This document shows, piece by piece, positions 47,735 through 48,361 of a stretch of DNA of 64,000 nucleotides (its first letter is position 1; each line of letters begins with the position of its first letter). Source of the DNA: Variovorax atrisoli 110B (GTDB taxonomy: Bacteria; Pseudomonadota; Gammaproteobacteria; Burkholderiales; Burkholderiaceae_C); assembly GCF_000382045.1 (NCBI RefSeq), contig NZ_KB907452.1, positions 250,295 to 314,294 of the forward strand, in the 5' to 3' direction. The notes beneath the pieces were generated by a model. That model had not been told where the DNA came from, searched no databases, and saw only the letters and a program-made list of their open reading frames with translations. The translations under genes were made by a program, and so were the position numbers.

Positions 47735-47792
47735 AGCGCCAGTGAGGCCGCGGCGGGTGGCTATACTGCGCCCCGTCACGTCGAACAAGGGC

Positions 47793-48011
47793 GTGATCGG
47801 GATTGGCGTCCCGCTGAAATCACTGCGACGTAAAGCCGCAGTCACCGCGCAGGGTCTGCGGCTTCGTCGTTCGTGCCTCCAGTTTTGGCGGCTCGACGTG
47901 CGGGCGCGAGCCCGGCCGGTTTCATGCAAGTGGTTTCCCGGTACGCCAACTCGTCGAGCCGCCGCCCTCAATTGGCGTTGAGCGCAGCGGTGTCAACAAG
48001 CCGAAACCACT
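47793..48011 (+). ncRNA. Highly structured leader RNA candidate
   Basis: Five perfect stem pairs fall in about 220 bases: GTGAT/ATCAC with inner CGGGA/TCCCG (47793-47823); AAGCCGCAG/CTGCGGCTT (47833-47864); GGCGGCTCGACG/CGTCGAGCCGCC (47887-47963); CGCCAA/TTGGCG (47944-47977); AGTGGTTTC/GAAACCACT (47929-48011). Some are mutually exclusive, as in a switching leader. It lies just upstream of a small orphan gene whose ribosome site follows. I know of no named family with certainty. Confidence 0.6.
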
Positions 48012-48022
48012 GGAGGCCTTTG

Positions 48023-48361
48023 ATGGCTGCATCTGCCCGCGCGTCCGCGCACGTCTCTTCATTCCCCCCATCTTCCGAAGCCGCAAGCCTCGAATCGCTC
48101 GCGCTGCAGGCCTGCGACGACATCGATGGCCTCCTGGCAGTGCAACGCGCATTCGCGTGCCTTGAAAAGCTCATCGCTCCCCAGCGAACGAGCGAAACCG
48201 ATGAGGTCTACCCGACCCGCACCGAACTCGGAGCGCTGGTGCGAGTGGTCAACGAGGAGCTGCAGAGGTGCCTGGGAGCGGCAGACGCGACGTTGCAAAG
48301 GCTGCGGGCCGGCCTCGCCGAGCGCGTCGTCGACGAACACCCCATGGCGCAACCCGGGTAG
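48023..48361 (+). CDS. Hypothetical 112-residue protein
   Basis: The small acidic-helical protein begins MAASARASAHVSSFPPSS and contains LALQACDDIDGLLAVQRAFA and ELGALVRVVNEELQRCLGAA, two amphipathic helices separated by a charged loop. No catalytic or membrane feature is visible. CTGGAGG precedes the ATG at good distance. The length and two-helix layout remind me of small regulator-like orphans in pseudomonads, but I cannot assign a family. The structured leader upstream is the noteworthy feature. Confidence 0.65.
   Translation: MAASARASAHVSSFPPSSEAASLESLALQACDDIDGLLAVQRAFACLEKLIAPQRTSETDEVYPTRTELGALVRVVNEELQRCLGAADATLQRLRAGLAERVVDEHPMAQPG

Follow-up and report, generated by a model that had tools for sequence, protein, structure and literature searches.

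Predicted C4 antisense RNA cassettes with small genes of their own in Variovorax chromosomes

Why should a dense array of nested and mutually incompatible RNA stems stand immediately upstream of a small orphan gene in the chromosome of Variovorax atrisoli 110B? The stretch that was analysed, here called the window, comprises 64,000 nucleotides of this genome (NCBI RefSeq assembly GCF_000382045.1, contig NZ_KB907452.1, positions 250,295 to 314,294); positions given below for features of the region are those of the window and refer to its plus strand. The original prediction, made from the sequence letters, had offered two readings, i.e. a switching leader or a small mobile cassette with a structured RNA of its own. 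Comparison with Rfam identified positions 47881-47969 as a C4 antisense RNA (RF01695), with a score of 53.3 bits against a cut-off of 45, an E value of 1.9e-7 for the 64-kb window and coverage of model positions 1-87 of 87. This is the sole Rfam match above its cut-off within the 64-kb window, which rules out a riboswitch or any other Rfam family for the leader. In a focused scan, weak matches below threshold were obtained for c4-a1b1 (RF03163, 47761-47817; 25.7 bits against a cut-off of 46.7) and for isrK (RF01394, 47775-47868; 26.8 bits against a cut-off of 50). The computed fold of the leader RNA (47771-48026) is more stable than those of all 200 dinucleotide shuffles out of 200 (z -4.47).

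All arms of the nested stems are found where the original prediction had placed them, and they can be assigned to the parts of a C4 system. At the left edge of the conserved unit lies a putative -10 hexamer, TATACT (47762-47767), proposed on the basis of its sequence and of its position being kept in other copies; the window copy has no convincing -35 element, and a strict promoter scan found no site. The candidate a1b1 leader then begins with a 5' hairpin (GTCACG...CGTGAT, 47775-47797), suggested by the weak c4-a1b1 match together with the fold, and continues with the first targets of the two antisense loops. These are a1 (TTGGCGT, 47803-47809), which is located inside a CGGG/CCCG hairpin and would be bound by a', and b1 (GAAATCACT, 47816-47824), which would be bound by b' with one G-U pair and a duplex energy of -12.6 kcal/mol in the window. 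Between a1b1 and C4 there is a terminator-like hairpin (AAGCCGCAG/CTGCGGCTT, 47833-47841/47856-47864); a strict terminator scan makes no call for 47833-47864, where the T-run of the window copy is weak, and clear T-runs follow this hairpin in other copies. C4 itself features a main stem P1 of 12 bp (GGCGGCTCGACG, 47887-47898, with CGTCGAGCCGCC, 47952-47963), the antisense loop b' (AGTGGTTTC, 47929-47937) and the antisense segment a' (ACGCCAA, 47943-47949). Downstream of it are the second targets, a2 (TTGGCGT, 47972-47978) for a' and b2 (GAAACCACT, 48003-48011) for b'. The latter is the final arm that had been predicted to end at the ribosome site, and it does abut this site, with the Shine-Dalgarno motif GGAGG (48012-48016), recognized by its sequence, following directly. 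An uncharacterized gene for a protein of 112 amino acids (48023-48361) completes a unit of approximately 0.6 kb in the order promoter, a1b1, hairpin, C4, a2b2 and small gene. That some pairings exclude one another was likewise correctly seen: CGCCAA (47944-47949) lies inside the P1 loop, and its TTGGCG partners are located both beyond the stem (47972-47977) and upstream of it (47803-47808). The competing arms are the antisense loops a' and b' and their targets, and what had been taken for a switching leader is no riboswitch-like element but a C4-type antisense RNA that would be able to act in trans.

The region very probably constitutes a chromosomal C4 cassette, the parts of which, i.e. a1b1, the terminator-like hairpin, C4, a2b2 and the small gene, would be carried on a single transcript. 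By analogy with phages P1 and P7, where C4 silences the antirepressor operon, C4 most likely serves to switch off the small gene behind it. RNase P would cut C4 out of the transcript, a' and b' would bind a2 and b2, and with b' covering the ribosome site the small protein would not be made. Binding of C4 to a1b1 may titrate C4 or set read-through at the hairpin. Production of the small protein would then require that its own C4 be missing or titrated, for instance upon arrival in a naive cell or if matching a/b targets come from another element.

The same stems might alternatively form a cis-acting attenuator or a leader that sequesters the Shine-Dalgarno sequence, such that folding alone controls the gene, with the C4 fold being vestigial. 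In the minimum-energy fold of the window copy, a 9-nt segment upstream of C4, GCCTCCAGT, does pair with ACTGGAGGC at the ribosome site (-17.7 kcal/mol). Across 150 copies, however, cis pairing of this type is not copy-specific, as the median of a copy's own pairing (-9.7 kcal/mol) equals that obtained with swapped partners (-9.7 kcal/mol), and these equal medians rule it out as a feature of the family. Moreover, tight covariation is seen in the a/b codes, which would suit an RNA acting in trans, and full codes are unrepeated within a genome (see below); overall, we consider exclusive control in cis very unlikely.

How well pairing is maintained could be assessed in 162 copies fetched from 37 genomes (part of the genus total), 161 of which were parsable. 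For the structure count, 43 of the 162 copies were picked by equal C4 length and equal distance from C4 to the ribosome site, i.e. not by pairing. In this set, 99.9% of 1462 pair cells hold, compared with 28.4-45.3% in slid controls, and helices 1-3 of C4 are paired to 100%. Cells changed on both sides amount to 194, as against 55.1 in shuffles, and pairs with double changes to 17 as against 12.7; further standard pair types show no excess in this whole-structure count (31, with 32.3 in shuffles). Compensatory changes occur in 13 of 13 antisense-target pairs, i.e. in all counted pairs of both a'/a2 (7/7) and b'/b2 (6/6). The covariation check that the original prediction had proposed thus passes on related copies and, along with the Rfam match, upholds the claim of a structured RNA in front of the small orphan gene. 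Of the 161 copies, 147 have the complement of a' at a1 and 145 have it at a2, figures that drop to 3.0% and 0.9%, respectively, when a' is swapped in from a differently coded copy. An exact 6-mer match to b' is seen in 114 of these copies at b2 (1.2% after the swap) and in only 66 at b1 (1.7% after the swap). Comparison of the copies thereby shows, at the level of sequence, that the a'/a1/a2 and b'/b2 codes match and covary, with b1 being weaker.

Which genes stand behind these RNAs? As many as 157 of the 162 copies precede one of two small-protein families, with 120 belonging to the family of the window, 37 to a second family and five copies preceding neither; family membership was counted after leader residues had been removed from the profile, and upstream controls left one match for the first family and none for the second. 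Profile comparison, using profiles that are shallow, detected no homology between the two Variovorax families and none between the window's family and DUF6124, a viral family considered below. Independently of the RNA, 49 relatives of the 112-aa protein were found in the named genome collection, all in Variovorax records. An Rfam-grade C4 lies just upstream of 37 of these 49 (20/20, 13/20 and 4/9 by batch), such that C4 does precede most of these homologues of the small gene, a point that the original prediction had proposed to check. Among the 12 relatives without an Rfam-grade C4, in L325, L326, L329, L331, L333, L334 and L338 the ribosome site is immediately preceded by promoter, a1 and b1, which looks like a loss of C4 by deletion; other C4 RNAs could act on these versions in trans. 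L316 and L319 retain a1b1 and b2, and no leader was seen at L327, L328 and L337.

No Pfam family was found for the 112-aa protein; scores against PHROG and NCBIfam were at chance level, and there was neither a PADLOC (defence-family) match nor a tblastn match in phage or plasmid collections. AlphaFold2 predicts a helical hairpin with helices at residues 18-51 and 66-105 (mean pLDDT 76.8), for which Foldseek returned no fold relative at E <= 0.001; the best sequence match in the PDB is a designed helical repeat (E 0.0012). In 12 chosen pairs dN/dS amounts to 0.10-0.45, with a value of 0.19 for the window gene and its counterpart in genome G019, and by this measure the small gene is under purifying selection.

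Purifying selection also bears on whether the unit is a decayed prophage remnant, i.e. a C4 RNA with an accessory phage gene that has no present function. C4 is a phage RNA family, viral contigs and a prophage on a plasmid contain relatives of the unit, and some copies are damaged, with L007 having acquired a stop codon and L117 a deletion. Pairing is retained in diverged copies, however, the window neighbours tested are ordinary chromosomal genes and the sequence common to the copies stops at the edges of the unit, which together with selection on the small gene makes decay an improbable explanation. The damaged L007 copy resides in the window's own genome (C5, region 1751-1754); its small gene has an in-frame stop, and a'/a1/a2 as well as b'/b1/b2 still match.

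C4 was found in 47 of 101 genomes of the genus Variovorax, with up to 13 copies per genome; the window's own genome has seven, six of which exceed the cut-off. In the window, the unit is located between an EF-G-like gene and two DUF421 genes; TerC, isochorismatase, SDR and hemerythrin genes, which are ordinary chromosomal genes, are also nearby, and the window contains no tRNA. When 78 copies were compared, the common sequence began some 120-140 bases upstream of C4 and ended with the small gene, a limit located about 430-500 bases after the C4 start, with longer sharing only in some pairs. C4 follows the EF-G-like gene in three of 30 loci inspected, i.e. in the window, G019 and G080, and in the G080 copy at this site the small gene is deleted. 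Another site holds a full cassette in G080, a C4-less one in G019, G055 and G017, and other DNA in G000; the presence of the unit therefore varies between species, with no clean insertion caught.

The cassette part of the original prediction stands insofar as the unit recurs as such with its own structured RNA, but its mobility is hypothetical, the comparisons having turned up neither an integrase nor a terminal repeat nor a target duplication. Still, a minimal mobile element, moved by itself or by a helper and using C4 for superinfection immunity, would be in line with the unrelated flanks of different copies, with presence or absence at one site (unit in G080, other DNA in G000), with the exclusion of codes, and with an Ideonella unit (see below) that lies, together with an HNH gene, between a fragment of a DUF1367 gene and a whole one. 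Against this, comparisons of the unit edges revealed no recombinase, terminal repeats or target duplication, and the site examined in detail had no clean empty allele. Many cassette sites are common to several species, and the existence of 204 between-genome pairs sharing flanks implies that much of the unit's spread has been vertical. A mobile element is possible, if on balance rather unlikely.

If C4 acts in trans, as in the preferred reading of the unit as a C4 cassette, copies in one cell need different codes in order to be controlled separately. Among the copies compared, 7 a-codes and 42 b-codes form 70 combinations. Not one of 425 within-genome pairs has a full code in common, with 7.0 expected, since 201 of 12247 between-genome pairs without common flanks share theirs; the P values (binomial, 0.0009; label permutation, 0.0006) are indicative only, because copies from related genomes are not independent. 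After matching on protein identity, none of the 401 within-genome pairs then counted shares a full code, with 8.6 expected. Within-genome pairs with the same a-code (48, with 70.9 expected) or the same b-code (9, with 20.7 expected) are both rarer as well. Left out of the 425 are four tandem pairs, whose codes also differ. At L215, L228, L249 and L256, two tandem C4 RNAs with different full codes stand ahead of one small gene. Of the 204 between-genome pairs with common flanks, 146 have different full codes, and codes therefore change in place, as exemplified by L002 and its counterparts, which keep b' GGATGTC with a' varying among genomes. One may speculate, albeit with considerable doubt, that the Variovorax cassettes form a mutually orthogonal set with the two-loop code as an immunity barcode and no genome tolerating repeats. 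A phage or cassette that invades with a resident code would then titrate C4 and free the small protein, and the set as a whole would operate as a sensor bank for C4-type phages.

Outside Variovorax chromosomes, a pattern scan of viral contigs yielded 50 generic matches, some of which lack a1 and a2 and hence are not C4, and nine with a Variovorax-type P1 end. Among these nine, the proteins of L395 and L389 match the profile of the window's family (E 2.1e-9 and 3.8e-7, respectively, in a small set), and L397 has an AntA antirepressor. In L393 (IMGVR_UViG_3300011113_000379), both the a and the b code are identical to those of cassette L001, which belongs to the window's genome. Elsewhere, C4 precedes antirepressor domains, i.e. 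Rha (Phage_pRha) at L154, Bro-N at L346 and L158, and P22_AR_N at L357. C4 immediately precedes viral DUF6124 (PF19619) genes in 18 of the 20 loci that were scanned, out of 21 found, on contigs that are related rather than independent; one of the other two loci has a C4 above the cut-off farther upstream and one has none. At the loci concerned (L398, L400-L415 and L418) C4 is often accompanied by c4-a1b1, and two of them also carry the Pseudomonas sRNA P10. In sampled genomes of the class, DUF6124 was found in 0 of 369, a count that is uninformative as controls were equally silent. On the Ideonella dechloratans plasmid NZ_CP088082.1 (L174:5849-7523), a C4 leader, a small gene and an HNH endonuclease gene are flanked by an N-terminal DUF1367 fragment and a second, whole DUF1367 gene in a phage-like region with a terminase annotated downstream. 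A 1.5-Mb genome from another family of the class has four C4 matches inside 1.4 kb (G361:C9:1700-3092), and C4 RNAs from further families of the class (L145-L173) again contain a' codes such as TCTGCT, TCTGTC and TACGCC.

Taken together, these observations point to a known RNA in a new setting, i.e. in chromosomal single-gene cassettes that would be self-silencing and mutually orthogonal. According to the available text of PMC5320573 and PMC2864571, the C4 family, its predicted presence in Burkholderiales and multicopy C4 in Acinetobacter baumannii were already known; what appears to be new is the organization into cassettes with small genes of their own and the non-repeating combinatorial code. 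Literature searches, which left out most subscription journals, found no paper joining C4 antisense RNA and Variovorax, none on DUF6124 and none joining C4 antisense RNA, Pseudomonas and a small protein. C4 has hitherto been known from phage immunity, and few of its targets have been studied. If our interpretation is true, it also controls large families of small, uncharacterized bacterial genes, two of them in Variovorax and one, DUF6124, viral, the contigs with the latter carrying Pseudomonas-type sequence. The cassettes would then be a naturally occurring collection of dozens of antisense pairs orthogonal to one another, and the targets of multicopy C4 RNAs, a question raised for A. baumannii in PMC5320573, would be the gene behind each of them.

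How does the Variovorax unit compare with known systems? In phages P1 and P7, a C4 precursor is processed by RNase P and C4 represses in trans, with b' occluding the ribosome site and a' giving specificity and hence heteroimmunity, as described in the available parts of PMC5320573, PMC12197685 and PMC8546580. The Variovorax unit resembles this system in its fold, its a' and b' loops, the location of a1b1 before and a2b2 after C4, the position of b2 at the ribosome site and code differences that would separate immunities. In contrast to P1/P7, the gene putatively controlled is a chromosomal gene for a 112-aa protein rather than a phage antirepressor operon, and many differently coded copies are present per genome. 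An antirepressor gene downstream, as in the immI operon of P1/P7, is absent, and the genes after the small gene are those of DUF421. C4 in Burkholderiales had been predicted earlier (Weinberg et al. 2010, as cited in PMC5320573; PMC2864571). A parallel in copy number, described in PMC5320573, is A. baumannii AB5075, where Group 1 C4-like sRNAs comprise 21 similar sequences, 15 of them full length, that are expressed, apparently processed and variable in the a' loop; many C4-like RNAs per genome are common to both organisms. Whereas that text, as far as available, gives neither cognate genes nor a1b1/a2b2 codes, the Variovorax C4 RNAs come with matching targets of their own and nearly all with a small gene of the two families. 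IsrK of prophage Gifsy-1 (RF01394; PMC4825925) is similar in that a short leader RNA extends to a terminator, with read-through into a small gene, but the window leader remains below the isrK cut-off and has no antirepressor gene. Viral C4-DUF6124 loci share with the unit a C4 directly before a small uncharacterized gene, the Variovorax protein being without detectable homology to DUF6124. As for type I toxin-antitoxin systems, which pair a toxic protein with a separately transcribed RNA antitoxin, C4 here is part of the same leader as the gene that it would control.
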